Shown in pieces: positions 50,176 through 63,816 of a stretch of 64,000 bases of DNA; within the stretch, counting starts at the first letter, position 1; each line of letters begins with the position of its first letter. The stretch comes from an uncultured Lacinutrix sp. (lineage in GTDB: Bacteria > Bacteroidota > Bacteroidia > Flavobacteriales > Flavobacteriaceae): assembly GCF_947500605.1 (NCBI RefSeq), contig NZ_CANMSJ010000004.1, forward strand, positions 124,001 to 188,000, given 5' to 3'. Below the pieces are notes generated by a model. The model was not told the DNA's origin, searched no databases, and saw only the letters and a list, made by a program, of their open reading frames with translations. A program made the position numbers and the translations under genes.

Positions 50176-50652
50176 CTACTTCACCTTAATAGACTGCTTA
50201 CAATCTACCAAGTTAATATCCTCTGCCTCAGCATCGAACTGCTTAAGATACGGCCTAAATTCTTCTAAAATTTCTTCAACAATATAAGTTTTAAGCGGCT
50301 TATCTATAAGCCCTATACAAGAGTTAGACTCTTCTATTTTCTCTACATCCTGAGGACTAGTTGAAGAAGACAACATGTATATTCTAATACTTTTTTTATC
50401 TATACCACTTAGCTCATCAAACGCTTCTAAAAATTGAAATCCGTCCATTTCTGGCATATTAATATCTAATAATATTACATCTGGAACAAACATTGTTGGA
50501 TACGCTCCTTTATCTTCAAGAATTTTTAAAAAATTAATAGCAGAACAAGCACTTGTAAATGCTCGAATATCACAACCAGTACTCAATCTCTCTATAATCT
50601 TCTGATTAACAAACAAGTCTATCTTATTATCATCAATTAACATTATATTCAT
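50176..50652 (-). CDS. Single-domain response regulator
   Basis: A 158-residue receiver without an output domain. Acidic pocket LIDDNK at residues 6-10, phosphoacceptor Asp63 in VILLDINMPEMDGF, Thr/Ser switch in YMLSSSTSPQD and Lys in IDKPLK. An extension of about 20 residues follows the receiver. It is the last gene of the minus-strand signalling operon, 20 bp after the histidine kinase, and is the likely target of that kinase. Such receivers usually relay phosphate or bind a partner protein. Confidence 0.93.
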   Translation of the reverse strand: MNIMLIDDNKIDLFVNQKIIERLSTGCDIRAFTSACSAINFLKILEDKGAYPTMFVPDVILLDINMPEMDGFQFLEAFDELSGIDKKSIRIYMLSSSTSPQDVEKIEESNSCIGLIDKPLKTYIVEEILEEFRPYLKQFDAEAEDINLVDCKQSIKVK

Positions 50653-50672: not shown

Positions 50673-52517
50673 CTAAATACTATTAGGTAAAACAATTTCA
50701 AAACAAGCACCGTTTCCAACACTACTTTCAACATTTATTTCCCCTTTTAACTCATTTACTATGTTTTTAACCACATATAACCCTAAGCCATGACCGGGTT
50801 CATTAAATCTATTCGCTCTATAATACAGTTCAAAAATTTTATGAAGCTTCTTTTTATGTATGCCAACTCCATTATCCTCAACAATAATCACTGCTTCTTT
50901 TTGATTAGTTCTTACAGTTATGTTTACATAAGAACTCTCTAATCCTTCCATATTGGCAGAGTATTTTATAGCATTCTTGATTAAATTTTGTAGTATATAT
51001 TTGATCTTTTCTTTATAAGAATGAAACCCATAAGCATCTATCACGTTTACTTTAAAACTTATATTAGAAAATTTTTCGGCTCCTTTTAACAAGACTAATA
51101 CATCATCTATAGCTTTAGTGAAATTGATTTTTTTAATATCAGTTTTATTAATCAAAATGTTTGATGCCTGAGAAAGACTTTCTGACAGTTCTTTCCCATC
51201 TTTAACAACAGTATCCAACATTTCCATTAACAACTCTTTCTCCTCACTTACCTTCTCTTCTTTTAACAAACCCAGAAGACCTTCTGCTGAAGAAAAAGGA
51301 GCCTTAAGATCGTGCGCAGAACGGTATAAAAACAACTCAAGATCTTTAGTTTTTACCTTTAATTTGTTTTCTAATAATTTACGTTTTGTAATATCCAACA
51401 TCATTGCACAATAGAAACTACTATCACCAATTACTCCCGAACTTAAAGCAAATTCTACAGGAAACTGTTTACCATCACTACTCAAACAACACATTTCTAC
51501 AACATCAACATTTTGCTTATTTTTTATTCTATTAACAGCCTTTTTAAGCTGGGTAATATTCCCTTTTCTATACTTATCAGACATTAAAACAGTTAGAGAC
51601 CTACCTATTATTTCTTCTTTCTCATAACCAAAAGCAGCCTCTGCTCCTTTATTCCATTCTGTAATATTACCTTTATCATCTGCAACCACAATAATACCAA
51701 CATTTATAGATTGATAAATTGCTCTAAATTTTGCTTCTGTATCAATTAACTTATTGCTAGAACTTTTAAGTTTAGTAATTTTATATAATGCTATTGTTGC
51801 AGAAATAACAACTCCGATTTCATCAAAGTTAGGAGAGACCACTACCGAAAAGAACTTCTTCTCTCCAACAGTATCAAAATCGTACAATTCAAATTCATGA
51901 GTTAATTTATCTACACAAGCTTTATCTATATTTTGTTTAAAATATTCAAAAATTTCAGGGCTAAAATAATCATATAGATAAGTGTCTATTAAATCATTAA
52001 CTTTAGTATCACAAAAGCGTTTATTAGCATTTAAAATCTTTCCATACCTGGAAATTGTAAACACATTTAAAGGCATTTTTTTTAAGAATTTTTTATTAGT
52101 TAAATCATCTTGTAATAGTTTAATATTTTTTTCATGATATTTTGTTACATCTTTGTATATCGCTAAATATTTTACGCTTTTTTGATCCTCATTTATCAAT
52201 GGTATAATTGTAGTATCTAACCAAAATGGATTTCCTGTTTTGGAAAAATCAGCCAAAACACCATTCCATTTATTTCCCATTTTAATGGTTCTCCACAAGT
52301 TTTTATATACACGATCAGAATGTAGTGGAGATTTTAATAACTCGTGCGTCTCCCCAACAAGCTTATTAGCATTACAATCTAAAATTTTACAAAATTTACT
52401 ATTTACATATTCTATTCTACCTAAAGAATCTGTTATAGAAACTATAGAATTCTCAAAAACGGCTTCTAAAACCTCATCATTAAGACTGCTTAGTAAACTA
52501 TATTTAATTGCTTCCAT
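50673..52517 (-). CDS. Cytoplasmic PAS histidine kinase
   Basis: A 614-residue kinase without membrane helices. Three PAS domains: about residues 11-125 (FENSIVSITDSLGRIEYVNSKFCKILDC), 150-255 (FTISRYGKILNANKRFCD) and 262-385 (IYQSINVGIIVVADDKGNITEWNKGAEAAFGYEKEEIIGR). A HisKA domain follows with the His box FLYRSAHDLKAPFSSAEGLL and an HATPase domain (N box NLIKNAIKYSAN, G1 DNGVGI, G2 GHGLGLYVV). The His box has the SAHDLKAP form of small-receiver-linked kinases in Bacteroidetes. It overlaps the STAS-like gene upstream by 14 nt and is followed by a receiver. Confidence 0.93.
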   Translation of the reverse strand: MEAIKYSLLSSLNDEVLEAVFENSIVSITDSLGRIEYVNSKFCKILDCNANKLVGETHELLKSPLHSDRVYKNLWRTIKMGNKWNGVLADFSKTGNPFWLDTTIIPLINEDQKSVKYLAIYKDVTKYHEKNIKLLQDDLTNKKFLKKMPLNVFTISRYGKILNANKRFCDTKVNDLIDTYLYDYFSPEIFEYFKQNIDKACVDKLTHEFELYDFDTVGEKKFFSVVVSPNFDEIGVVISATIALYKITKLKSSSNKLIDTEAKFRAIYQSINVGIIVVADDKGNITEWNKGAEAAFGYEKEEIIGRSLTVLMSDKYRKGNITQLKKAVNRIKNKQNVDVVEMCCLSSDGKQFPVEFALSSGVIGDSSFYCAMMLDITKRKLLENKLKVKTKDLELFLYRSAHDLKAPFSSAEGLLGLLKEEKVSEEKELLMEMLDTVVKDGKELSESLSQASNILINKTDIKKINFTKAIDDVLVLLKGAEKFSNISFKVNVIDAYGFHSYKEKIKYILQNLIKNAIKYSANMEGLESSYVNITVRTNQKEAVIIVEDNGVGIHKKKLHKIFELYYRANRFNEPGHGLGLYVVKNIVNELKGEINVESSVGNGACFEIVLPNSI

Positions 52518-52917
52518 AAAAATTATTTTTAGCTTTTAAACAGTATTGCTTTGCAGACTCTAGGTCATCAAACATTTTAAAAGGCGTGAGTGGCTCATAA
52601 ATTCTCTTATATGAATTTATTACCAGTTTTATTCCAATAGTATTAATAACATAAGCTTCAGAAATCCTCAACTTAACCAATGTAGGAGAATTAGCCATTA
52701 AATTAGACGACTCGCGTGTAAAAGTACCTTGAGAATCTCTAGAGTCTATTAAAAAAGGCATAGGTTTTCCGTCACACAGCTTATCTATAATTTTGATAAA
52801 AATTTTAACTGCATCTAATTCGAACCTATAATTAGCTTTTTCGTTTCTAAACTGACAATAAAGAATATCATTATCTGTCCAAAACTTTGACTGACCTATT
52901 TTTATTACATTATCCAT
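52504..52917 (-). CDS. Small STAS-like protein, paralogue 2
   Basis: A 137-residue protein (MDNVIKIGQSKFWTDNDILYC...). It has no signal peptide. The pattern MPFLIDSRDSQGTF, LMANSPTLVKLRISEAYVINTIGIKLVINSY and PFKMFDDLESAKQYC recalls STAS/SpoIIAA-type alpha/beta folds; from memory it belongs to a recently named DUF (DUF7793-like) common in Flavobacteria, and I am not certain of that number. It is clearly related to its upstream neighbour: KFW...N.I.YC, the LP-x-(I/D)-x-(S/F)RD segment and the final K..D...A..Y match in order. I chose the ATG at 52917, just after the upstream stop; an earlier ATG at 52929 would overlap that gene. Confidence 0.7.
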   Translation of the reverse strand: MDNVIKIGQSKFWTDNDILYCQFRNEKANYRFELDAVKIFIKIIDKLCDGKPMPFLIDSRDSQGTFTRESSNLMANSPTLVKLRISEAYVINTIGIKLVINSYKRIYEPLTPFKMFDDLESAKQYCLKAKNNFYGSN

Positions 52918-52918
52918 A

Positions 52919-53341
52919 TTAACCATCACAACTTAAAGAATTAAAAACCGTATAATTTTCACTACTATACTCTATTGCTAAATTTGAATCTTTAAAAATT
53001 ATATTAGAAACATTTGATCCGCAAAACATTTGACAAAATGAAAGAAGAATTTTGTGTTTCAGTTTTTTTACCAAAAAAACTTTTGAAAGTACCACATCTT
53101 CAATTCTTGAACTATTAGACAAAAGCCTGAAAAGCTTTATACTAAGCAAAGTATTGAGGTCTCTAAAATTAAATATTACTGGTAAGTAAGTTCCGTTTGA
53201 CAATATTGAAATTGCTTCATAAAACAAGTCTTCAATATCTTCCAAAGAATAGTTTTTATCAAAATCATTGCATATATCACAATAAATAACATTCCGGTTC
53301 AACCAAAATTTAATATTGTTAATGTGTATTTCGTTCTCCAT
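52919..53341 (-). CDS. Small STAS-like protein, paralogue 1
   Basis: A 140-residue protein starting MENEIHINNIKFWLNRNVIYC. It is a diverged copy of the next gene, with NFRDLNTLLSIKLFRLLSNSS and a final SNLAIEYSSE aligning with the same positions. Both could be STAS-like partner-switch or regulatory proteins, but the conserved phosphorylatable Ser of anti-anti-sigma factors is not obvious. I chose the ATG at 53341 and not 53362: a sigma-54-like promoter at 53365-53381 would place the transcription start near 53354, downstream of the earlier ATG. First gene of a four-gene operon ending at 50176. Confidence 0.72.
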   Translation of the reverse strand: MENEIHINNIKFWLNRNVIYCDICNDFDKNYSLEDIEDLFYEAISILSNGTYLPVIFNFRDLNTLLSIKLFRLLSNSSRIEDVVLSKVFLVKKLKHKILLSFCQMFCGSNVSNIIFKDSNLAIEYSSENYTVFNSLSCDG

Positions 53342-53364: not shown

Positions 53365-53381
53365 ACCAATAGCGATGCCAA
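53365..53381 (-). promoter_or_regulatory. Sigma-54-like (-24/-12) promoter of the signalling operon
   Basis: The minus strand reads TTGGCATCGCTATTGGT. The -24 GG and -12 GG are 12 bp apart, the spacing of TGGCACnnnnnTTGC, with C replaced by G at the -12 box and T for C after GGCA. Predicted start about 53354, 13 nt before the ATG at 53341. The element at 55409-55425 is identical in 13 of 17 positions. Inference; no transcript data. Confidence 0.55.
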
Positions 53382-53467
53382 ATGTGTTATTAAAACAACA
53401 TAAATACATAACCTATTGATTAAATGACTCTTATCACCTTTAAATAAATTTAACAACAATAATAGAG

Positions 53468-53480
53468 TAACGATATACCG
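53468..53480 (-). promoter_or_regulatory. Candidate activator site, proximal, operon promoter
   Basis: Plus strand TAACGATATACCG, a perfect inverse match to CGGTATnnCGTTA. It starts 89 bp upstream of the -24 GG and about 114 bp from the predicted start. Confidence 0.5.
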
Positions 53481-53512
53481 TGAGTATTTTTTTGACAGAA
53501 ACTACAAATTAG

Positions 53513-53525
53513 CGGTATTACGTTA
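53513..53525 (+). promoter_or_regulatory. Candidate activator site, distal, operon promoter
   Basis: CGGTATTACGTTA, a perfect match to the 13-bp motif, in opposite orientation to and 45 bp from the proximal copy. The 23 bp at 53504-53526 match 55545-55567 in 19 positions. Confidence 0.5.
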
Positions 53526-53626
53526 TAAAACGATAGCAATATCTTTAACTCTATTTCTCTAAAAGAGCTCAACTAAAAGGCAGTAATCTATTTACTTAAT
53601 TACAACTCTTAAAAAATAACTGTTAT

Positions 53627-55090
53627 TTATTTTATATTAAGATTTAAAGAGAATACAGTTATTGACGAAGTAATGATACCACCTACTAATTTTTGTCCCC
53701 AAATCTCTATATAATCGTTTGGCTCTAACTCAACTGTTCCTGAAATTGAATTACTTGTAATATCTGCCAAAACATTCACCCTCATAATTGTATTAGTTTC
53801 TGTTAAAGTTGTAGTTCCATTTTTTCTAATAAAAAACGCATAATAATCACCCAAATTAACATTCCCTCTAACTGATAATGAAGCACTTATTTGAAATGTT
53901 CTCTTCTTCTTCCCTAGATATGTTAATCTATTATCTTGTGGTGACGATACTCTAATTGCGTTTACCACAGTAGTACTATTTGAACCACTATTTCCCGACA
54001 AGTTAAAAGCACTACTGTTTGGAGCATCTTGAACAAAACCTGTAGTAATTGTGCCGTCGTAATAAATATGACCAGTTGCAACCTCATCTGACTCTACTGG
54101 AATCCCTGGACAATCTACCGTCCAAGTATTACTAAAACTATAACCCGAAAATGAACCTACACTATACCTTTTAATATACTGAGTACTGGTACCACTAAAA
54201 CTCGCTCCTGTTAATATTCCATTTTCCACAACAGGATTACTACTAACATCTATACCAATAGCAGAACCATTTACATGAGAAAAACCACCTTGCTTTTCCA
54301 GAATATTAAATACACCTGTAAAAGTTTCAAATGTTCCTGTGTTTGTAGACAACCAACCTTGATTACTTAACAATAACTCACTAATATCATTATATGTTAC
54401 ACCCGTTCCATTTCCTGAATACTGAATAATACTTAAAAAAGCTAACCCAAATCCATCAATAGTTCCTACGGACATTGAATTTGCAACTACAGCATCTCTA
54501 AAAACAAAGTTTTCACCTACTGTTCCTGTTAAATTAAAAATAGTTCCTCCTGGAGCTGTAAGCGTTAATCCCTTTATACTACCACCCGAGTTACCAACAA
54601 ACATTGTTCCTCCTGATTTTATTAAAATATCTTCATTAGTATCGAACCCGACTACATATGCATTATTTAAATTAATAGAGTGTACTAAGGTAATTGCGCC
54701 ATTAATCTCGTACAAAGTATTTGGAGTTAACAAATACTCACTTCCGCTTCCTGCTGCAAGCTCTTCGCTTAAATCTGCTTCAGTTTTAATTAATTTGTGA
54801 TTGTTACGTTTTTCCGTGGGCACTATTACCCAATTACTTGAGTTATAAAAATAAAAAGCATTTTCAGTTGTATCATAAACCAACAAACCATCAGCCGGGC
54901 TGGCTATAGCAAGTTTTTGGACGGTAGTCATTCTAGGCGCTAACATCCCTTGAGTCTCCGAACTAATATCCAGAACAGAAGAAGGATCTGGTGATGTTGT
55001 ACCTATACCTACTTGAGAAAAGGCGCAGTAATTAAAACTAACAAAAGCAGCTAGCAAAAATGTTTTTAAACGTGGTTTTAAGTTTTTCAT
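53627..55090 (-). CDS. Secreted surface protein with possible jelly-roll (C1q/TNF-like) C-terminus
   Basis: A 487-residue protein with signal peptide KTFLLAAFVSFNYCAFS cleaved before QVGIGTTSPDPSSVLDI. That mature start, followed by SETQGMLAPRMTTVQKLAI and DGLLVYDTTENAFYFYNSSNWV, is the recurring head of Bacteroidetes tail-fibre-like surface proteins. The middle (about residues 110-330) is rich in Gly, Ser, Thr and Asn with short repeated strands, as in beta-helices. The last ~110 residues (RTFQISASLSVRGN, DYYAFFIRKNGTTTL, SGTVELEPNDYIEIWGQ) resemble a C1q/TNF-like jelly roll. No T9SS C-terminal sorting domain is obvious. It is the first output gene downstream of the sigma-54 activator, with a leader of about 310 nt. 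Confidence 0.75.
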   Translation of the reverse strand: MKNLKPRLKTFLLAAFVSFNYCAFSQVGIGTTSPDPSSVLDISSETQGMLAPRMTTVQKLAIASPADGLLVYDTTENAFYFYNSSNWVIVPTEKRNNHKLIKTEADLSEELAAGSGSEYLLTPNTLYEINGAITLVHSINLNNAYVVGFDTNEDILIKSGGTMFVGNSGGSIKGLTLTAPGGTIFNLTGTVGENFVFRDAVVANSMSVGTIDGFGLAFLSIIQYSGNGTGVTYNDISELLLSNQGWLSTNTGTFETFTGVFNILEKQGGFSHVNGSAIGIDVSSNPVVENGILTGASFSGTSTQYIKRYSVGSFSGYSFSNTWTVDCPGIPVESDEVATGHIYYDGTITTGFVQDAPNSSAFNLSGNSGSNSTTVVNAIRVSSPQDNRLTYLGKKKRTFQISASLSVRGNVNLGDYYAFFIRKNGTTTLTETNTIMRVNVLADITSNSISGTVELEPNDYIEIWGQKLVGGIITSSITVFSLNLNIK

Positions 55091-55230
55091 AATTAATAGG
55101 TTAAGTTTATTTTTGAGATTAAGGTTAATAATAAAAAAGCTTTTAGGTTTAGATTAAATACAAACAAAAACTTAAAAGACATTTACTATTGAATCAAGAG
55201 GTTTGTTGGAATAACACGCAAAATCTTATT

Positions 55231-55260
55231 AAAAAAACCACTCTGTTAATTCTTAACAGA
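55231..55260 (-). terminator. Hairpin with T tract in the surface-protein leader
   Basis: The minus strand has TCTGTTAA-GAA-TTAACAGA (8-bp stem, 55260-55242), then GTGG and seven T (55237-55231). It looks like an early terminator or attenuator within the leader. The stem is AT-rich, so its strength is uncertain. Confidence 0.4.
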
Positions 55261-55408
55261 ATCGATTCACGACAAATACAATTATACCTTTGCAGATAAT
55301 AGCTCTATTTTATATTATTTAATTACAGCTCCACTATAATTTTATTAAATACACTAGATAGACACCATATGCTAACCTCTTGTTTTTCAATAGTATTACT
55401 AAAGAGCA

Positions 55409-55425
55409 TCCAATAGGAGTGCCAA
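55409..55425 (-). promoter_or_regulatory. Sigma-54-like (-24/-12) promoter of the surface-protein gene
   Basis: The minus strand reads TTGGCACTCCTATTGGA, matching TGGCACnnnnnTTGCw except G for C in the -12 box. -24 GG at 55423-55422 and -12 GG at 55411-55410 give the correct 12-bp step. Predicted start about 55398. Confidence 0.6.
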
Positions 55426-55443
55426 AATTAGTATTAGAACAAA

Positions 55444-55484
55444 AAAAATCATAAATCACTAATAATTAGTGGTTTATGATTTTT
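55444..55484 (-). terminator. Terminator after the sigma-54 activator gene
   Basis: A 19-bp near-perfect stem, AAAAATCATAAACCACTAA / TTAGTGATTTATGATTTTT on the minus strand (one C-A mismatch), with a 3-nt loop and flanking T, 85 bp past the activator stop. It separates that transcript from the surface-protein promoter. Confidence 0.75.
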
Positions 55485-55510
55485 ATATGAATTATTTCAA
55501 GATACGGAAA

Positions 55511-55523
55511 TATCGTTATACCG
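55511..55523 (-). promoter_or_regulatory. Candidate activator site, proximal, surface-protein promoter
   Basis: Plus strand TATCGTTATACCG, matching inverse CGGTATnnCGTTA with one difference. It starts 88 bp upstream of the -24 GG and about 113 bp from the predicted start. Confidence 0.5.
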
Positions 55524-55553
55524 CTTATTTTCAGGTTTAAACGTATAAACTAA

Positions 55554-55566
55554 CGGTATTCCGTTA
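55554..55566 (+). promoter_or_regulatory. Candidate activator site, distal, surface-protein promoter
   Basis: CGGTATTCCGTTA, a perfect match to the 13-bp motif, 43 bp from the proximal copy and inverted to it. It lies just outside the activator stop codon. The wider TAACGG-TATT-CCGTTA is itself a palindrome. Confidence 0.5.
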
Positions 55567-55568
55567 TT

Positions 55569-58500
55569 TTATTTAGGTTTTAAAATATTCAATTTAGTCA
55601 TTCTATCTCGTAATGTACTAGGCTTTAAATTTAACACAACAGCTGCTCCTTTAGGCCCACTTATTTTCCAACTACACTGCTCTAAAACCAATATAATATG
55701 ATTACGCTGAACGGAGTCTAAAGTTAAATCTTTACCGTTAATTGGCTTCGCTTTTTGCGTAGAAGACTCAAAACCTGGAACAACTAAAGTTTCTGTATTA
55801 GACAGTATAGAAGCACGCTCTATTAAGTTTTCTAACTCCCTTATATTACCTGGCCAATTATAGGCTTTTAACTTACTCATAGCATCATCTGTAATATACT
55901 TGATGTTTTTTCCATAAGCTTTATTAAACTTATCTACAAAATGCTCCACCAACAAAGGCACATCGTCCTTTCTATCTCTTAAAGGAGGAACCTCTATCGG
56001 GAAAACATTAAGCCTAAAATACAAGTCTTCTCTAAATTGTTTTTTCTTAATTTCTTCTTTTAAATCCCTATTAGTTGCCGCAATTACCCTAACATCTAAT
56101 TTTTTTAACCCAGTAACACCACCAACAACCTCTATTTCTCCCTCTTGCAAAAATCTTAATATTTTTGGTTGCATGTCTAGTGGTAACTCCCCTATTTCAT
56201 CTAAAAACAAAGTACCACCATTAGCTAATTCAAATTTCCCAACTTTATCACTAATCGCTCCGGTAAATGATCCTTTTTTGTGACCAAACAACTCACTCTC
56301 AATCAACTCTCTAGGTATAGCAGAACAATTCACTTTAATTAATGGTTTGTTATTACGTAAACTCGTATTATGTACTGCTCTTGCCAACAACTCTTTTCCC
56401 GTACCAGACTCACCTAACAACAACACTGTAGCAGTAGTTGGAGCAACTTTCTCAACCTCTGTTAAGACATTACTAAACTCCACACTTCCATAAACCATTT
56501 CCTCATAATTAAACACTAAGTCTAACTCATTTCGCAGGTAAACATTTTCTTGCTCTAATTGCTCCTTTAATGTATTTAACTCCTTATTAACCTCTGTTAG
56601 TTTCTGATTAGTAATTGCTATTTTATTTTCTGCAGTTTTTCGCTCTGTACTTTCTATCATTAAAGAAACAATACTAGCTATGGATGTAACAAAGCTTTCT
56701 TCATCTACACTAAAAGCTCTATTGTTTAACTTACTCTCAAAACTTATAATACCATAATAATTATTTCTACCATGGATTAACACATCTATTCTAGAAGAAA
56801 TATTATTAGGAATAAAAAATTGTTTAGCAAAATCTTTAGTTATTGGATTAGATTTTACATCTCGTATATTTATGCTATTTCTACTTTTAAATGCATTAAA
56901 ATAATTTGGAAAGCTATCTTTAGCTATAGTTAATTCATTTGATTTAAACACATTACCTGTTGTGTTATAGAATAGCCTACTCACAAGCTCCGTTTGATCA
57001 TTCCTATACTCCCATATAGTTACCAAATCCACATCTAACGCTTTGGCAGACTCTATTGCTATTTTTTTTAATGAAGAATCAAAATCTTCCCCAATGAGAC
57101 TAGCTAACTCTAGAATAACATCTTTTTTCTGCTTTGACTTTATCGCAATATCTTCTAAAGCTTTCCTAATTTTCTCTTCTTCTGAAACATCTTTAATTGT
57201 CGCAAATATAGCTACAACTTTTCCCTCATCATTCTTAATTATTCCTGTTAAAAAAGAGGCTATAAACTTATTTCCTGACTTTTTAACAAACTCTAACTGA
57301 AAAGATAGCGCATCTCCTTTTGCCACCTCACCCTTAATTTTAAGCATATTTTCATAGTCCTTTTCTTGTGCAAAAGGATACGGTAATTCTTGACCGATAA
57401 GTTCTTCTTCTGAATACCCAAGGATCTCGCACAATGAATCGTTTACTTTCATTATTGTTCCTTCTAAATCTACCATAAGCAAACCTTCTTGCATAGACAT
57501 AACAAGATTTTCTGTAAACTCGTTTGCAATCTTAAGGTCTATTGCTGCTTTTTTACGAGCTGTAATATCTTGAATGGTCCCCACAAAACCAATAGCCTTT
57601 CCTTTTATAGAGATAATCTCACCTAATCCATGAATCCATTTTAACTCCTTTGTATCTTTAGTAAGGATTCTATATTCTAAATCGAAATTTTTATTATGCT
57701 CTTGGCATTCTAAAACTGTTTCTTTTACAATCGACCTATCTTCTGAATACACAATTGCTTTCCAAATTTCAAAATCTACTAAAGCATCTTTATCTATGCC
57801 AATAACTTCTTTAAACGTTGCAGAAGTTTCTGCAACTAAATTTTTTAAACTTAAATTAAAACTACCTGTTTTCGCTATTTTTTGTGCTTCTAAAAGTGAC
57901 TTTTCACTTTCTTTAATTTTTATCTCGGAATGCTTACGTTCGGTAATATCTTGAATAGTGCCAAAAAACTCAACTGGCTCGTTGTTGTAATAAATGACTT
58001 GCCCTAAAGCATGAATCCATTTTAATTGCTTTTTATTTTTTGTTATAACTCTAAATTCCAGATCAAACGCTTCACCTGTCTCAATACTCTTACTAAACAT
58101 TTCTTTATCCAAAAGTGCATCGTCTGGATGAATAATTTCCTCCCAAGCTTCAAAGAAAAACTCTCTATTATCATCTAATTCTAAGATTTTTTCAAAGGTA
58201 GCAGAAGCTTCTATTTTTTGCGTCTTCAGGTTTAATCTATAACTTCCAATTTTTGCTATTTTTTGAGCCTCTAACAGAGATTTTTCATTCTCTTGAAGCC
58301 TTCTCTCTGCTTGCTTTCGTTGAGAGATATCTTGTATTGTTGCAATGTTAGCAATAATTTCGCCTTCATTATTTTTAACAAATGAAGCCGACATTAACAC
58401 AGGAAAACGCTCTCCGTTCTTTCGCATTAAAGTTAACTCTACCTTACTATATTCTCCTTTTAATATATTAGCGTATGTTTCTTCAATTTCTTTTCGCTTT

Positions 58501-61196
58501 TCTGGTGGCCAATAATTAAAAGGAGCTTTTTGACCTACCAACTCTTCCTTTGTAAAACGTAACATTTTACAAAGTGCTGGATTTGCTTCTATTTGAACGC
58601 CATCCATATTTACAACAGACAAACCTTCGTTTAAATTTAGAATAAGATTTTCCGAAAAGTCTTTAGCTAATTTTAAATCTATTTCAGCCTTTTTACGATC
58701 TGTGATATCCTGAACAGTAGAAAAGTTTGCTGTTTTTACACCGTTTGCATCATAAACACTTGATATTAAAACATGCACAGGAAAACGCTCGCCGTTTTTT
58801 CGCATGTAAGTATTTTCGTAATCCTTTTTATTTCTATTTTCTGTTAACAACTTGTAACGCGCATCATTTTCTTTCTTCAATTCAGGTGGCGAATATGGAA
58901 ACGGACGCTTAACTCCTATTAATTCTTGCTCTGTAAAACCTGTCATTTTACAAAAAGAAGGATTTACACTTATTATTTCTGATTCTAAATTTATAGCAAC
59001 CAAGCCTTCATGCATACCATCTAGAAGACTAGTAGAAAATTCATTGGCTTTTTTTAGATCTAATTCAATGTTTTTCCGCTGTGTAATATCTTGAATAGTA
59101 CCAATCATTTTTGTTGGATTATCTTTACCATCAAAAATAAGCTTACCAATACCATGCACCCAAACTTCTTCTTTAGATCCCTGCTTTAAAACCTTGTATT
59201 CTTTGTTAAATTTCTTATTATTTATAACACAATATTCAAAATAATTAGAGACTTCTTCTTTATGGTCTGGATGAATAAGCTCTGTCCAGCCCTCCATTGT
59301 TCTAGTATAATCTTTATTTATACCAAAGACGCTAAATAAAAACGCAGACCCTTCCCAAGTCAATTCATTTAAATCGATAACATAAGAGCCTATATTACCA
59401 ACTATTTGAGATTGTCTTAAATTATATTCGCTTTCTTGTATTTTTATTTCGGCATGCTTACGACTAGTAATATCTTGCATGGTCCCAATTATCTTTATGG
59501 GCTTTGCATCACTATCGAAAACAAACTCACCTATTCCATGAGTCCAAATTTCTTTTTTATCATCTAATTTTATAATTCGATACTCCTTATCAAACTTCTT
59601 ATTGTTTAAAATACAATCTTCAAAATGATTTCGAACTTCCTCTCTTTCATCGGAATGAATAAGGCTCATCCAACTCTCGAAAGTTTTTTCAAACGACTTA
59701 TTTATACCTAACATCTTATTAAGCACAATAGATCCTTCCCAAATTTGAGTATTTAGATCTAAAGAATAAGACCCTATATTTCCAATTATTTGAGCCTGCT
59801 TTAAATTATGTTCACTTTCTAAAAGTTTAAATTCCGCATTTTTACGCTCTGTTAGATCTCTCGCAATAGAAAGTATTTCTCCATCTTTTTGCATTCTTGC
59901 AGACACCTCTGTCTCTATAAAAGATCCATCTTTACGCTTAAACTTTCTAAAAAAAAGAATAGACTCTCCATTTAATAAACTTTCGTAGTTTTCTTTACTT
60001 TTAATAAAGTTACCTTGATTAAGATCGTTAATGTTTAATTTTAAAAATTCTTCCTCTGTATATCCTAAATTAGTATAAACCGCTTTATTAAAACTATGTA
60101 TTGTTCCATCTAAGGAATAAGTAATAATAGAATCTGTTGCCTGATCTATTAATGCCTTATAAGATTCGTCTTTCTTTTTAATTTCTTCTACTATCCTAGA
60201 TTTCTCTATTGCAATATTAACTAAGTTTAACGTGAAATTTAGCTCTCGAATATCCTTTAAAGAAGGTGCACTTATGGTTTTACTATAAATAGCAAAAGTA
60301 CCAATAACGGTTTTATTTTTTGATAAAATTGGAATAGACCAACACGACTTTAAATCGCTTTCTAATGCAAAATGTTTATAATTGACCCATAAAGCATCCG
60401 TACCAATATCTGAAACAATAACTGGTTTCCCTGTAAATGCAGCTGTACCACATGACCCTACATTTTCTCCTATAGGAACTTGCCTTAATGCGAGACTGTA
60501 TTTTTCTGGTAGTGATGGTGAAGATTCTAAATTAAGATGTATACCATCTGGATCCACCAAGCTAATAGAACCATAATAACTAGGGTAAATAGACTGATAG
60601 TTTAAAATTAAACGATCAAAGATTTCATGCAGAGGAGTGTTTACCGCAATTAAATCTAGTATTTCGTTTTTATGTATTAGTAATCGTTGTGTTTTTTCTC
60701 TTTCTAAAACCTCACTTTCAAGATCCAAGTTTTTTTGCTCAAGTTTACTAATCAATCTTTTACTATAGAGCTTTAAAACTTCTTCTTCAGTAAACTTTAT
60801 GTTTTTAGCAACTTTTTCTCCTGGTTTAGATTTTGCAAATACATCTCGAATTACAGATAGTATTTTATTTTGATCTGTTGGCTTTCTTAAAAACTGAACT
60901 GCCCCTAATTTTAAGGCAAAATCTTCATCAAGTGCCTCTGTATATGTAGAAGTATAAAAAACAAAAGGAATATTTTTAAATTGCTCGTCTTTCTTACAAG
61001 CTTGACAAAACAGATAACCATCCATTACTGGCATTAAAATATCTGATATAATTAGATCTACATCATATTCATGTAATTTATCCAAGCCTTCTTTACCATC
61101 TTTAGCTTCAACAACTATATAGCCTACTTCTTCAAGTATAACTCTAAGTAAATATAGATTTTCAAAAGTATCATCTACTATTAATATCGTTTTCAT
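55569..61196 (-). CDS. Giant multi-sensor sigma-54-dependent transcriptional activator
   Basis: A 1875-residue cytoplasmic protein. Order: receiver (1-125, phosphoacceptor Asp52 in IISDILMPVMDGYLF); GAF (about 180-340); eight PAS/PAC units (about 345-1380); second GAF (about 1390-1530); coiled coil (KLTEVNKELNTLKEQLEQEN); AAA+ domain with Walker A GESGTGKE at about 1594-1601, the sigma-54 contact loop GSFTGA at about 1640 (usually GAFTGA) and Walker B GGTLFLDEIGELP at about 1660; arginine-finger region RLNVFPIEVPPLRDR; Fis-type HTH at the end (GPKGAAVVLNLKPSTLRDRM). The AAA+ and HTH most resemble FhlA-type activators. Usual family length is 450-700. It is 7 bp after a lone receiver and downstream of a CHASE histidine kinase. 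Confidence 0.92.
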   Translation of the reverse strand: MKTILIVDDTFENLYLLRVILEEVGYIVVEAKDGKEGLDKLHEYDVDLIISDILMPVMDGYLFCQACKKDEQFKNIPFVFYTSTYTEALDEDFALKLGAVQFLRKPTDQNKILSVIRDVFAKSKPGEKVAKNIKFTEEEVLKLYSKRLISKLEQKNLDLESEVLEREKTQRLLIHKNEILDLIAVNTPLHEIFDRLILNYQSIYPSYYGSISLVDPDGIHLNLESSPSLPEKYSLALRQVPIGENVGSCGTAAFTGKPVIVSDIGTDALWVNYKHFALESDLKSCWSIPILSKNKTVIGTFAIYSKTISAPSLKDIRELNFTLNLVNIAIEKSRIVEEIKKKDESYKALIDQATDSIITYSLDGTIHSFNKAVYTNLGYTEEEFLKLNINDLNQGNFIKSKENYESLLNGESILFFRKFKRKDGSFIETEVSARMQKDGEILSIARDLTERKNAEFKLLESEHNLKQAQIIGNIGSYSLDLNTQIWEGSIVLNKMLGINKSFEKTFESWMSLIHSDEREEVRNHFEDCILNNKKFDKEYRIIKLDDKKEIWTHGIGEFVFDSDAKPIKIIGTMQDITSRKHAEIKIQESEYNLRQSQIVGNIGSYVIDLNELTWEGSAFLFSVFGINKDYTRTMEGWTELIHPDHKEEVSNYFEYCVINNKKFNKEYKVLKQGSKEEVWVHGIGKLIFDGKDNPTKMIGTIQDITQRKNIELDLKKANEFSTSLLDGMHEGLVAINLESEIISVNPSFCKMTGFTEQELIGVKRPFPYSPPELKKENDARYKLLTENRNKKDYENTYMRKNGERFPVHVLISSVYDANGVKTANFSTVQDITDRKKAEIDLKLAKDFSENLILNLNEGLSVVNMDGVQIEANPALCKMLRFTKEELVGQKAPFNYWPPEKRKEIEETYANILKGEYSKVELTLMRKNGERFPVLMSASFVKNNEGEIIANIATIQDISQRKQAERRLQENEKSLLEAQKIAKIGSYRLNLKTQKIEASATFEKILELDDNREFFFEAWEEIIHPDDALLDKEMFSKSIETGEAFDLEFRVITKNKKQLKWIHALGQVIYYNNEPVEFFGTIQDITERKHSEIKIKESEKSLLEAQKIAKTGSFNLSLKNLVAETSATFKEVIGIDKDALVDFEIWKAIVYSEDRSIVKETVLECQEHNKNFDLEYRILTKDTKELKWIHGLGEIISIKGKAIGFVGTIQDITARKKAAIDLKIANEFTENLVMSMQEGLLMVDLEGTIMKVNDSLCEILGYSEEELIGQELPYPFAQEKDYENMLKIKGEVAKGDALSFQLEFVKKSGNKFIASFLTGIIKNDEGKVVAIFATIKDVSEEEKIRKALEDIAIKSKQKKDVILELASLIGEDFDSSLKKIAIESAKALDVDLVTIWEYRNDQTELVSRLFYNTTGNVFKSNELTIAKDSFPNYFNAFKSRNSINIRDVKSNPITKDFAKQFFIPNNISSRIDVLIHGRNNYYGIISFESKLNNRAFSVDEESFVTSIASIVSLMIESTERKTAENKIAITNQKLTEVNKELNTLKEQLEQENVYLRNELDLVFNYEEMVYGSVEFSNVLTEVEKVAPTTATVLLLGESGTGKELLARAVHNTSLRNNKPLIKVNCSAIPRELIESELFGHKKGSFTGAISDKVGKFELANGGTLFLDEIGELPLDMQPKILRFLQEGEIEVVGGVTGLKKLDVRVIAATNRDLKEEIKKKQFREDLYFRLNVFPIEVPPLRDRKDDVPLLVEHFVDKFNKAYGKNIKYITDDAMSKLKAYNWPGNIRELENLIERASILSNTETLVVPGFESSTQKAKPINGKDLTLDSVQRNHIILVLEQCSWKISGPKGAAVVLNLKPSTLRDRMTKLNILKPK

Positions 61197-61203
61197 GCCT
61201 TAA

Positions 61204-61572
61204 TTACGCTTTAAATATGCACTCCATTTGTTTGATAAAAGTATCCGGATTAATAGGCTTTTCTATATATCCATTTGCTCCCGCTTCAATTGCTTTTTCT
61301 CTATCTCCACCCATAGCATGCGATGTTACTACAATAACAACAGTGTTTTCTGGCAAACCATTAGCCCTTAAATTACTACATATTTCATAACCATCCATAT
61401 CTGGTAATTGAATATCAACCAAAATAATTTCAGGATGTTTTTCATCTGCTAAATTTAACCCATCTATCCCATTATAAGCCTTAATTACACTATAACCGCT
61501 ACTTGTAAGTAAATACGAAAGCATATACATATTTTGAACGTTATCTTCAATGATTAAAATGGTAGGTTTCAT
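61204..61572 (-). CDS. Single-domain response regulator (CheY/DivK type)
   Basis: A 122-residue receiver only. Acidic pair IIEDN at residues 7-11, phosphoacceptor Asp53 in IILVDIQLPDMDGYEIC, switch Thr in VVVTSHAMGG and Lys in YIEKPINPDTF. The AMGGDREKAIEAGANGYIEKPI segment is of the DivK-like type that often docks onto kinases. It sits 84 bp after the CHASE kinase and 7 bp before the activator, so it is likely a phosphate carrier or competitor between the two. Confidence 0.94.
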   Translation of the reverse strand: MKPTILIIEDNVQNMYMLSYLLTSSGYSVIKAYNGIDGLNLADEKHPEIILVDIQLPDMDGYEICSNLRANGLPENTVVIVVTSHAMGGDREKAIEAGANGYIEKPINPDTFIKQMECIFKA

Positions 61573-61656: not shown

Positions 61657-63816
61657 TTAGTCCGTATGAGAATACTTTAACGGAAGCCTAATTATAAAGT
61701 TACTACCTTTTCCTAGTTCGCTTTCTACTTGAATTGTGCCTCCTAATTTTTCGATTAAATTTTTGCTAATAGCCAACCCAAGACCCGTTCCTTCGTGCTT
61801 TCTATTTAAACCTCCTTTAAGCTGCATAAAAGGCATAAATAATTTATTAATATCCTTCAAATCTATTCCAATGCCTTGATCTATGATTTGAGTTACTAGC
61901 ACATCATCTTTAACGTTTACTTTTATTCTTACATCTCCTTTCTCAGAAAACTTAATAGCATTAGAAAGTATGTTTAATAAAATTTGTTCTATACGCCTTT
62001 CATCACTTATTAGTGTAATATCTAAATTAGAAATTTCCGTATGTAATTCCAATCCTTTTTTTGAAGCTTGAGGCATTAAAAAGTCTATTGTTTTTTCTAA
62101 TGTTGCTAAATAATTAAATGGATAGAAGGAAACTCTTAATTTACCTGCTTCTATTTTAGAAATATCTAAAACGTCATTAATTAATTTTAGCAAATGTGAA
62201 CCACTATCTTTTACCATAGAGAGTTGCTTTTTCTGCTCACTATTTAATGGTCCCGCTAATTCTTTTAACAAAATGCCTGTAAAGCCAATAATAGAATTCA
62301 TGGGAGTTCTTAACTCATGTGACATGGTTGCTAAAAATGCAGATTTCATTAAATCTGCAGATTGCGCCTTTACTTTTTCTTTCTCTAATTCTGTAGATTG
62401 AAGATTAATATCCTCTAAAAGATTTAGTAAAGCCTCTTTACTATCATTAAGTTCTTCGGTTCTTAAACCCACTAATTTCTCTAAATTATTCTTATAGCTT
62501 AATAGTTCTTTTTCGCTATGAATTCTTTCTGTTATATCTGAAGCAGTACCAATGTATCCATACATATTATTTTCTGCATCTACTAACTTAGTACCTTTTA
62601 CCGTAAGCCAAGTAGTATTTCCGTTTTTATCTAAGAACTTCAATTCGGTATTAAAATCAGATTGAAATACCACAGCCTGTTGCCACTCCTGAATAACTCT
62701 TTCCTTATCATCTGGATGAATAGCATCTCCCCACCCAGAGCCCATAGCTTCATCAAATGACATTCCAGAATATTTCATCCATTCGTCATTAACATAATTA
62801 ACCATTCCTTCCTTGTCTGTAGAAAATATAGCTACTTGTGCATTGGAAGCTAAACTTCTAAATAGTGCTTCGCTTTTTTTAACTTTTGCAGATGTGGTCT
62901 CATAGACCAACTTTAATTTTTTTTCCTGCTCTGAAAGCTTATAGGAAATTAAATTATTTAAACGAGCAGATCTACCTGCAAAAAACCACACAATCCAACT
63001 ACTAAAAAAAGCTAACAAAACACCAATTACAGAAGTCAACATTGCTGTATTAAAAGCCTTTTTCTCTAATGGCTTTTGCAATGGCACTACATAAAGCTTC
63101 CATTCTCCCATAGACATCTCTATAGGTATAACGTGTTCTTTATATAAAGAAATATCGTTTTCTAAAAAAAAATCTTCATTTCCCGTTTCAGGGTTCACCC
63201 TAGACAATTGATAAGTAAAACTATTTTCTTCAGAATCTTCTACGACTAATTCATTAAAAAAGGTAGATATTTTAGTAACTACAGCAGCAAACCCGACGAA
63301 TTTATCATCAATAAATAGAGGCTGTCTACTTACCATACCAATGCCTCCTTGTTTTAAACGAACTGGGCCCGCAATAAAAAAATCTTTCCTTTTTATGGTA
63401 GCCATTGAACCACTTCTACCTTCAGAACTTGTTAGAATATTGAAACCAAGCACATCATTACCCTTTAAAGGATAAACATGTGTAATAACTCCACTACTAT
63501 CTACTAACTCTACAACATCAAAATATTTACTTCTACTTAATAATTCTGCAGCTATTTTATCAAAATCTTCTGGAATTCCATTTATTTCTACAATGTATTC
63601 CAATAATTTTGTTGCGGAATAGCTATCCATAATAAGCGATTGGAGTTTCTCTTTAATTAAACCCGCTTGATTGCTCACTTTTCGTTTTTGCTCACTATTA
63701 TTTATCACATATTCTTGATATGCAGAATATTGTGTAGTAAAAAGCAGTGTTAAAAAAACCAAAAGCCCTAACACCAAAGGCTTCTTTAAGGAAAAAGGTG
63801 AAATACTTTTTCTCAT
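61657..63816 (-). CDS. CHASE-PAS membrane histidine kinase
   Basis: A 719-residue sensor kinase. N-terminal helix at about residues 13-29, periplasmic CHASE domain (about 60-210: FDVVELVDSSGVITHVYPLKGNDVLGFNIL, GGIGMVSRQPLFIDDKFVGFAAVV), second helix at about 260-280 (MLTSVIGVLLAFFSSWIVWFFAG), one PAS domain at about 315-435, coiled coil, HisKA (FLATMSHELRTPMNSIIGF) and HATPase (NILSNAIKFSEKG, DQGIGI, GTGLGLAISKNLIEKLGG). CHASE domains bind small ligands outside the cytoplasm (cytokinins in plants); the ligand here is unknown. It heads the visible kinase-receiver-activator series. Confidence 0.94.
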   Translation of the reverse strand: MRKSISPFSLKKPLVLGLLVFLTLLFTTQYSAYQEYVINNSEQKRKVSNQAGLIKEKLQSLIMDSYSATKLLEYIVEINGIPEDFDKIAAELLSRSKYFDVVELVDSSGVITHVYPLKGNDVLGFNILTSSEGRSGSMATIKRKDFFIAGPVRLKQGGIGMVSRQPLFIDDKFVGFAAVVTKISTFFNELVVEDSEENSFTYQLSRVNPETGNEDFFLENDISLYKEHVIPIEMSMGEWKLYVVPLQKPLEKKAFNTAMLTSVIGVLLAFFSSWIVWFFAGRSARLNNLISYKLSEQEKKLKLVYETTSAKVKKSEALFRSLASNAQVAIFSTDKEGMVNYVNDEWMKYSGMSFDEAMGSGWGDAIHPDDKERVIQEWQQAVVFQSDFNTELKFLDKNGNTTWLTVKGTKLVDAENNMYGYIGTASDITERIHSEKELLSYKNNLEKLVGLRTEELNDSKEALLNLLEDINLQSTELEKEKVKAQSADLMKSAFLATMSHELRTPMNSIIGFTGILLKELAGPLNSEQKKQLSMVKDSGSHLLKLINDVLDISKIEAGKLRVSFYPFNYLATLEKTIDFLMPQASKKGLELHTEISNLDITLISDERRIEQILLNILSNAIKFSEKGDVRIKVNVKDDVLVTQIIDQGIGIDLKDINKLFMPFMQLKGGLNRKHEGTGLGLAISKNLIEKLGGTIQVESELGKGSNFIIRLPLKYSHTD

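Follow-up and report, generated by a model that had tools for sequence, protein, structure and literature searches.

The window, a stretch of 64,000 nucleotides from an uncultured Lacinutrix sp., encodes on its minus strand a giant sigma-54 activator (enhancer-binding protein, EBP), followed by a gene for a putative surface protein and a small signalling operon. This arrangement raises the question of whether a single activator governs both sets of target genes as one regulon and, if so, through which DNA sites.

The activator and its putative target genes

The genes concerned are as follows:

61657..63816, minus strand: sensor kinase with CHASE-PAS-HisKA-HATPase domains (Pfam), first gene of the activator group
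61204..61572, minus strand: stand-alone receiver protein of 122 aa (Pfam Response_reg)
55569..61196, minus strand: 1875-aa sigma-54 activator with REC, GAF, a PAS array and a sigma-54 AAA+ domain (domains, orthologues)
53627..55090, minus strand: predicted exported fibre-like protein of 487 aa (signal-like N-terminal helix and structure model)
52919..53341, minus strand: STAS-like protein 1 (profile comparison with STAS protein 2)
52504..52929, minus strand: STAS-like protein 2, DUF7793, predicted SpoIIAA-like fold (Pfam PF25056; model pLDDT 89)
50673..52517, minus strand: PAS histidine kinase with HATPase_c, HisKA appearing only below its cut-off (Pfam)
50176..50652, minus strand: receiver protein of 158 aa, final gene of the group (Pfam)

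The AAA+ domain of the activator matches PF00158 (4.4e-68, residues 1571-1735), and the sigma-54 contact loop GAFTGA reads GSFTGA with F and T retained, both features placing the protein among the EBPs. The C-terminal end is HTH-like. No Pfam HTH model (Fis-type included) was found among the matches of the protein, two NCBIfam activator models, both below their curated cut-offs, give alignments extending through residues 1873 and 1867, and the KPSTLRD-type end is conserved in 37 genomes with a match to the activator. A kinase of the same family as that encoded at 61657..63816 precedes the activator in many relatives, and the 122-aa receiver is syntenic in six loci (L045-L048, L051, L052). The genome of the window also encodes RpoN, together with four full-length sigma-54 activators in total.

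The structure model of the surface protein, of moderate confidence, comprises a predicted beta-helix and a C-terminal TNF/C1q-like head, and suggests an exported, tail-fibre-like protein; no family was assigned to it in PHROGs, Pfam or NCBIfam, the one Pfam match (E 0.18) falling below its cut-off. The two STAS proteins constitute one family by profile comparison (probability 99.6), and STAS/SpoIIAA proteins are the top PDB matches of the fold, two chains reaching E <=0.001. For STAS protein 1 the start codon ATG 53341 is preferred because TTG 53362 lies upstream of the predicted transcript start. DUF7793 was present in 12 of 12 genomes with the module activator and in 9 of 87 others among 99 relatives; a literature search returned no paper on this family.

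Paired dyads upstream of two -24/-12 elements

The original prediction proposed two minus-strand promoters with sigma-54-type spacing, each preceded by an inverted pair of a 13-bp motif. Both -24/-12 elements were located at the proposed places, and the motif was present at 53468-53480 (minus), 53513-53525 (plus) and 55554-55566 (plus) exactly and at 55511-55523 (minus) with one mismatch. The proposed distances, 88 and 89 bp from the -24 GG to the nearer motif and 43 and 45 bp between motifs, agree with these coordinates. The pairing stands, but the order of orientations, which had also been noted, carries little meaning since the sites are near-palindromes: the 13-mer is a portion of a 16-bp near-palindromic dyad, whose distal consensus is TAACGGTATNCCGTTA. 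The resulting elements are:

55551..55566, no strand: distal dyad of promoter 1, TAACGGTATTCCGTTA, 21.6 bits
55511..55526, no strand: proximal dyad of promoter 1, 11.8 bits
55441..55486, minus strand: hairpin and T-run between the dyads and promoter 1 (sequence; fold -14.9 kcal/mol)
55409..55425, minus strand: -24/-12 element of promoter 1, TTGGCACTCCTATTGGA, predicted start ~55398
53510..53525, no strand: distal dyad of promoter 2, 13.9 bits
53468..53483, no strand: proximal dyad of promoter 2, 20.6 bits
53365..53381, minus strand: -24/-12 element of promoter 2, TTGGCATCGCTATTGGT, predicted start ~53354

The dyad centres are spaced by 40 bp at promoter 1 and 42 bp at promoter 2, and the proximal centre lies 95.5 and 96.5 bp, respectively, from the -24 GG. 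The distal dyad of promoter 1 begins 3 bp past the stop codon of the activator gene, and the hairpin at 55441..55486 is the probable terminator of the activator transcript, judging from its sequence. No remnant of a lost gene was found in the leader of the surface gene in the window (best E 0.2).

The 13-mer on its own is not enriched, either in the window (9 observed versus 8.94 expected at up to two mismatches) or genome-wide (29 observed versus 49 for a reversed control at up to one mismatch), so that the case stands on pairing and conservation. The window contains two dyad pairs, both at these promoters, while 100 simulated 64-kb windows (Markov order 1) yielded 12 single sites of at least 14 bits and no pairs. 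Five of the 29 genomic matches fall on the four sites of the window itself; the remaining 24 lack a partner at 41 +/- 6 bp, the top partner score being 2.0 bits, and the pairs are thus not scattered at random through the genome. Furthermore, 60 permuted palindromic matrices applied with the same thresholds gave a mean of 0.03 and a maximum of 1 pair at 36-46 bp, versus 43 for the real matrix in the genomes described below.

Conservation across flavobacterial genomes and alternative readings

As expected if the architecture accompanies the activator in relatives, the dyad pair and the -24/-12 element were found in all 38 distinct flavobacterial genomes with the module, at 43 promoters that are related by descent and should not be counted as independent; the STAS protein served to identify 26 of the 38 genomes, and co-occurrence in those is by construction. 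The matrix was trained on eight genomes, and the 30 genomes outside the training set gave the same picture (35 promoters). A stricter score, used first, recovered 37 of the 38 genomes; the limit for the weaker dyad was lowered from 9 to 7 bits after locus L188 had been seen, and at 9 bits 37 genomes and 41 promoters remain. Of an initial set of 15 activator loci, four (L056-L059) match the activator in the C-terminal part only (~50-54%); they were excluded from the 38 genomes, and no dyad pair was present in the DNA examined from them. One of these loci, L059, carries a single 12.5-bit site before a TTGC-type promoter.

The dyad spacing is helically phased and conserved, at 39-42 bp in 43 of 43 promoters (39 bp in 8, 40 in 26, 41 in 4 and 42 in 5), and no pairs of equal quality occurred at other spacings in the range of 17-300 bp. 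The proximal centre lies 94.5-98.5 bp from the -24 GG in 40 of the 43, one helical turn closer in two (85.5 and 86.5 bp) and one turn farther in one (108.5 bp). Among 14 promoters with identical geometry, mean pairwise identity was 0.85 for the distal dyad, 0.66 for the proximal dyad and 0.73 for the -24/-12 element; it was 0.39 between the dyads and 0.48 in the spacer.

The -24 element contains GGC in 43 of 43 promoters (TTGGCA in 33) and the -12 element has its G twelve bases past the -24 G in all 43, with a full TTG in 41, the box being the best-scoring one in a set stretch, a choice to which the invariant letters are partly due. The exceptions are the STAS promoter of L045 (TTAG) and L187 (TGGC). 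The letter following the -12 G is G in 24, A in 10, T in 8 and C in 1, so that the canonical TTGC is absent, the only C lying within TGGC. This missing -12 C (42 of 43) could indicate that the TTGGCA-N6-TTG boxes are not sigma-54 elements and that transcription starts from housekeeping sigma-A promoters, as could the only mild enrichment of TTGGCA-N6-TTG in the genome (52 versus 32 for the reversed control). We regard this as highly improbable: the -24 GGC and -12 G are invariant and stand at a near-fixed distance from the dyads of a sigma-54 activator, and boxes of such quality seldom occur at random, a top score of at least 10.5 within 60-150 bp being reached at 1.3% of 5000 random places versus 41 of 43 module promoters. 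Moreover, the intergenic TTGGCA-N6-TTG sequences of the genome likewise show no preference for C (A 8, T 5, C 4 and G 4; n=21, the two of the window included), and one of them precedes an apparent htpG gene. For flavobacteria, sigma-54 promoters are documented in the available text on Flavobacterium psychrophilum, in which htpG has such a promoter (PMC9723704). The boxes thus appear, by function and geometry, to be of the sigma-54 type with a non-canonical -12.

The position of the distal dyad invites another reading, namely that the dyads serve the 3' end of the activator gene, as transcription terminators or otherwise, and the -24/-12 elements are coincidental. Of the 37 genomes in which the activator stop codon was found, 36 have a distal dyad beginning -2 to +9 bp from the end of that codon, the stop codon supplies the first three bases of the dyad in 11 genomes, and in some relatives (e.g. 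L172, L184, L173, L052) the proximal dyad lies inside a hairpin followed by T. Against this, seven of the 43 promoters carry the same pair without adjoining an activator gene, and in L194 the activator occupies a separate contig with no dyad behind it while the operon retains the dyads and the -24/-12 element. The activator in the window, in turn, appears to have a separate hairpin-T terminator of its own, and a 3'-end role would leave the fixed distance to the -24 element without a reason. An operator role is accordingly preferred, and a 3'-end element is most improbable.

The sigma-54 promoters could also be real and the dyads bound by another regulator, either one of the other three full-length activators of the genome or a repressor, given that the operator has been assigned from sequence. 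However, the pair lies behind a linked activator in 37 genomes (36 counted, that of L047 being decayed), and the 5.5-6 kb examined around each of the other three activators (L142-L144) contained no pair, which makes a different regulator very unlikely. Binding by the linked activator is favoured, and there was no sign of its autoregulation, in that no dyad pair lay upstream of activator genes within the loci examined.

The extent of the regulon was assessed from the target genes. The surface and STAS genes lie behind one shared dyad/-24/-12 promoter in 10 relatives. In L047, the surface gene is fragmented and its dyads score only 3.3 and 0.6 bits, below threshold and left out of the 43, while the STAS promoter is intact. 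Homologues of the surface gene elsewhere in 12 genomes gave 41 rows, 30 with a locus and 11 without, and no dyad pair outside the module occurred in the 30 loci or in 10 additional stretches surrounding part of these loci. Two genomes (G010 and G012) have no surface gene beside the activator; their homologue elsewhere (41% identity) is without a pair, so that the regulon there seems to exclude it. A search for the proximal motif with TGGCA in 13 genomes of the genus gave 19 matches, six of them module promoters (G000 2, G005 1, G006 2, G010 1); the remaining 13 lie elsewhere and are not taken as support.

The probable regulon, its proposed mechanism and known systems

The proposal of a single regulon, in which the giant activator drives both the surface gene and the STAS/kinase/receiver operon, is supported by the geometry in 38 genomes, by the relatives with both target sets behind a single promoter, by site decay beside the broken surface gene and by the sites that stay with the operon when the activator is unlinked. 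We are confident that, overall, the best explanation is an EBP acting at paired dyads with sigma-54 to drive both target sets, the two elements of the window being two copies of one activator-controlled promoter. This reading builds on the observed domains, the site geometry with its conservation and phasing, the co-occurrence and the operon shared in relatives. From these sequence features, joint activation of the surface fibre and the small signalling operon by a single giant sensor protein is very probable.

Mechanistically, the activator would integrate receiver-domain phosphorylation with signals sensed by its GAF/PAS array. Its dimers would bind, presumably via the C-terminal HTH, the two 16-bp dyads, which lie roughly four helical turns from each other. 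Once assembled there, the activator would bend or perhaps loop ~97 bp of DNA (nine turns) to contact RNA polymerase-sigma54 positioned at the -24/-12 element. ATP hydrolysis would then open the putatively sigma-54-dependent promoter, turning on the gene for the exported fibre-like protein together with the STAS-STAS-kinase-receiver operon; the latter may feed back on signalling.

A wider reading, which we consider doubtful as a whole, is that sigma-54 of Flavobacteriaceae reads a -12 without the canonical C (TTGG preferred) and that activator, operator and promoter form a self-contained cassette, with the distal operator welded to the activator stop codon and the helical phase fixed, the unit having been copied before a gene leaving the operon, as in the fibre/STAS split of the Lacinutrix branch.

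The analysis predicts, down to its exact geometry, the cognate operator of a sigma-54 activator in Bacteroidota, a phylum in which sigma-54 promoters are known and the accessible portions of the literature consulted describe no activator-operator pair; literature searches yielded no recognisable published account of the module. The clean target set connects an exported fibre and STAS signalling with a PAS sensor of very large size, and the naturally occurring differences in spacing (one turn shorter in two genomes, one turn longer in one) offer material for studying helix-face dependence.

The module is a conventional sigma-54/EBP regulon with new members, namely the 1875-aa REC-GAF-PAS activator, the SpoIIAA-like STAS proteins and the fibre-like protein. 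Two tandem sites upstream of a -24/-12 promoter are likewise found in NtrC-glnAp2 and in LuxO-qrr of Vibrio, whereas the operator sequence, phylum and targets differ, the sensor is far larger and the -12 is mostly TTGG/A/T. For 61 Vibrio qrr enhancers, the available text gives loop lengths of ~80 to 120 bp, with clusters ~11 bp apart (PMC4740811), a range that can be set beside the module distances of 85.5/86.5, 94.5-98.5 and 108.5 bp. In the accessible part of a study that reconstructed sigma-54 regulons of Clostridiales, PAS activators lie near one or a few target operons and multiple sites occur upstream, for the most part 100-250 bp from the promoter (PMC6615313); the module resembles these regulons in its PAS-containing activator close to few targets and its several upstream sites, but differs in targeting an exported fibre and signalling proteins and in a distal site that adjoins or overlaps the activator stop codon. 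In F. psychrophilum, of the same family Flavobacteriaceae, SM4 -24/-12 promoters precede exported and gliding proteins, and three PF00158 proteins compare with four full-length activators here; the available text of that study contains no operator, cognate activator or mention of the module (PMC9723704). Finally, the module STAS proteins share a predicted fold with SpoIIAA/RsbV (PDB matches 2q3l, 4xs5 and the SpoIIAA of 1tid/1til/1th8; TM 0.51-0.74) at an identity of ~5-13%, and their partners are a histidine kinase and a receiver instead of a demonstrated SpoIIAB-type serine kinase.

Paired sites upstream of the two promoters

The two -24/-12 elements and four upstream motif sites of the original prediction were confirmed in the window sequence, and the 13-mer motif was found to be a portion of a 16-bp near-palindrome (hereafter dyad), the predicted activator site.

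Elements of the two promoters (dyads located from sequence and matrix)
55551-55566: promoter 1, distal dyad
55511-55526: promoter 1, proximal dyad
55409-55425, minus strand: promoter 1, -24/-12 element, before the fibre gene
53510-53525: promoter 2, distal dyad
53468-53483: promoter 2, proximal dyad
53365-53381, minus strand: promoter 2, -24/-12 element, before the STAS operon

The dyads lie 40 bp (promoter 1) and 42 bp (promoter 2) apart, centre to centre, and the proximal centre is 95.5 and 96.5 bp, respectively, from the first G of the -24 element. For the fibre gene, the leader is predicted at about 308 nt (55091-55398), and a search of it for traces of a lost gene found none.

The window occupies positions 124001-188000 of contig 4 in a genome of 3.5 Mb. 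A lone 13-mer is without meaning, because its counts did not exceed those expected by chance: 9 observed versus 8.94 expected in the window (up to two mismatches), and 29 matches versus 49 for the reversed control in the whole genome (up to one mismatch). Five of these 29 fall at the window's own four sites; the other 24 all lack a second dyad at 41 ± 6 bp, in line with the expectation that the pairs are not spread at random. One hundred simulated 64-kb windows yielded 12 single sites of at least 14 bits and no pair, versus two pairs in the real window, both at promoters 1 and 2. No further dyad pair was found in approximately 339 kb of the same genome (about a tenth of it, overlaps counted twice), the remainder having been scanned with the 13-mer only.

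Conservation of the promoter and its linkage to the activator gene

The activator gave matches at 1e-100 in 16 of 99 relatives, 12 of which carry the module discussed here. Among the relatives found, the closest with a name is Lacinutrix algicola (G005), whose activator is 91% identical over 1875 residues. Using the second STAS protein as query added 33 named loci, seven of them on contigs already in the set, for 38 distinct genomes. The dyad matrix was built from 16 dyads of eight genomes (L048-L055), leaving 30 genomes held out, with limits of 14 bits for the stronger dyad and 7 bits for the weaker, the latter lowered from 9 bits after locus L188 had failed at that value. The predicted conservation was borne out, since all 38 genomes contain at least one dyad pair, 43 promoters in total (41 promoters in 37 genomes at the 9-bit limit).

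Spacing between dyads was 39 bp in 8 promoters, 40 in 26, 41 in 4 and 42 in 5, and no pair of equal quality occurred at other spacings from 17 to 300 bp in the 716,274 bases scanned. Sixty palindromic matrices made by permutation, run with the 14- and 7-bit limits, averaged 0.03 pairs at 36-46 bp and never gave more than one. The proximal centre lies 94.5-98.5 bp from the -24 GG in 40 of 43 promoters; the three exceptions are displaced by about one helical turn, nearer (85.5 and 86.5 bp) or farther (108.5 bp). The held-out genomes alone supplied 35 promoters, all spaced 39-42 bp, with the 94.5-98.5 bp distance in 33. For each pair, the -24/-12 box with the highest score within 60-150 bp downstream was chosen; it scored at least 10.5 in 41 of 43 promoters versus 1.3% of 5000 random places. 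Among 14 promoters of identical geometry, mean pairwise identity was 0.85 and 0.66 for the dyads and 0.73 for the -24/-12 element, whereas the intervening DNA was much less conserved (0.39 between dyads, 0.48 in the spacer). DUF7793, the family of the second STAS-like protein, occurs in 12 of 12 module genomes versus 9 of the 87 others, a count that leaves out 26 further genomes found through the DUF7793 protein itself.

In 36 of 37 activator-linked genomes, the counted distal dyad begins -2 to +9 bp from the end of the activator stop codon, whose TAA forms the first three dyad bases in 11; in the 37th (L047), a decayed pair begins 6 bp past it. The predicted operator is therefore nearly fused to the regulator gene. 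In several relatives (L172, L184, L173, L168, L180, L183 and L052), the proximal dyad sits in a strong hairpin of -10.7 to -21.6 kcal/mol with a T-run after it, so that a single element may serve as predicted operator and as terminator of the activator transcript. At L059:4781-4930 (oriented), the dyad-like stretch CACGATATAAAGTCGCGATATTTCGTG and a TTGC-type promoter come after the gene for a more distant activator (681-687 aa); this stretch may be an earlier version of the predicted operator.

Operon layouts and encoded proteins

STAS and fibre genes stand on one strand behind a single dyad-pair promoter in 10 of 38 genomes (L048, L049, L053, L054, L170, L173, L174, L178, L191 and L194). Six have two promoters. 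In the window, L045, L046 and L047 (the last with a decayed first promoter), the fibre gene and the STAS operon each have one. In L188 and L189, the STAS operon again has its own, and the other promoter stands before a STAS gene, a gene for a 650-aa protein and the fibre gene. For the other 22, the DNA examined showed no fibre gene downstream of the promoter. Genes that form one operon in some relatives are thus divided, in the branch of the window, between two transcription units with promoters of one type, and this is the strongest evidence in favour of a single regulon. As natural experiments, two loci separate predicted operator from gene neighbourhood. In L194 (Halomarinibacterium sedimenti), activator (79% identical over its C-terminal part) and operon lie on different contigs (579,447 and 985,717 bases); the operon retains both dyads and the -24/-12 element, and no dyad was found within 14 kb around the activator gene. 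In L047, the fibre gene is fragmented with dyads at 3.3 and 0.6 bits, and the STAS promoter is intact.

The activator, an unusually large sensor, comprises receiver, GAF, PAS-array and sigma-54 AAA+ plus lid domains (Pfam), with a GSFTGA loop and the C-terminal end KPSTLRDRM; the genome also encodes RpoN. Upstream lie genes for a CHASE-PAS histidine kinase and a receiver protein, and downstream those for the exported 487-aa fibre protein, two STAS-like proteins, a PAS kinase and a receiver. The second STAS-like protein (PF25056) has a predicted SpoIIAA-like fold (pLDDT 89), and profile comparison places the first in the same family. In L053 (the same contig as L192; Lacinutrix neustonica), the activator coding sequence is broken into two frames of 991 and 133 aa and the second STAS gene is interrupted as well, as a result of decay or sequencing error.

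No accepted family for the fibre protein was found in Pfam, NCBIfam or PHROGs. Its AlphaFold2 model (mean pLDDT 76.6, pTM 0.51) contains a beta-helix as well as a C-terminal domain. Only parts of the chain match TNF/C1q-like heads, exosporium proteins and phage tailspikes in the PDB, with a whole-chain TM of about 0.2; among viral matches, the best reached TM 0.53/0.63. In seven relatives, a protein of about 650 aa is encoded immediately before the fibre gene; of two tested, one exceeded the Pfam and NCBIfam cut-offs for a type IX secretion tail, and the second matched below that of Pfam. Two fibre paralogues in the window's genome (G000:C11:114723-116141, 41% identity; G000:C3:110059-110646, 38% over the first 220 residues) showed no paired dyads in the stretches read.

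The -12 box, proposed mechanism and known sigma-54 systems

The canonical -12 sequence is TTGC, within a promoter given as TGGCAC-N5-7-TTGCT in PMC12316311. Across the 43 promoters, the base after the -12 G is G in 24, A in 10, T in 8 and C in 1. TTGGCA-N6-TTG occurs 52 times in the window's genome versus 32 for the reversed control; 51 distinct contexts were examined. The 21 intergenic ones, including the window's two promoters, likewise lack a C preference (A 8, T 5, C 4, G 4). Departing from TTGC is thus probably characteristic of the family, but chance may account for many of these matches. One precedes a gene whose product, judging by its N-terminus, is presumably HtpG. The htpG gene is described as a sigma-54 target in F. 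psychrophilum (PMC9723704). Nine intergenic elements (L061-L063, L070, L071, L078, L080, L122 and L137) lie 26-80 bp before genes with exported-like protein starts, fitting a putative sigma-54 control of the cell exterior. Sequences identical or similar to TTGGCACGTTAATTG occur at G000:C6:218433, C6:218692, C8:80347, C16:258 and C16:467, four of the five near contig ends, and may belong to a repetitive gene family that carries sigma-54 promoters of its own.

Activator domains, RpoN gene, dyad pair, geometry, phasing and co-occurrence are shown by the analysis. By analogy with established sigma-54 biology (PMC7057263), activator dimers would bind the dyads, a hexamer would assemble, the DNA between dyads and promoter would bend or loop, and promoter opening would be driven by ATP. 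Putative signals would feed into the activator, the STAS-kinase-receiver proteins might provide feedback, and the fibre protein might serve adhesion or glycan binding.

The Vibrio qrr enhancers offer a direct precedent for tandem sites and loop lengths stepped by the helical turn (PMC4740811), and Clostridiales one for activators near their target operons (PMC6615313). The regulon would therefore be of an already known kind, and as a prediction from sequence it is unusually well supported by comparison. It differs from the known sigma-54 kind in its odd -12 box and in its unusually large sensor.
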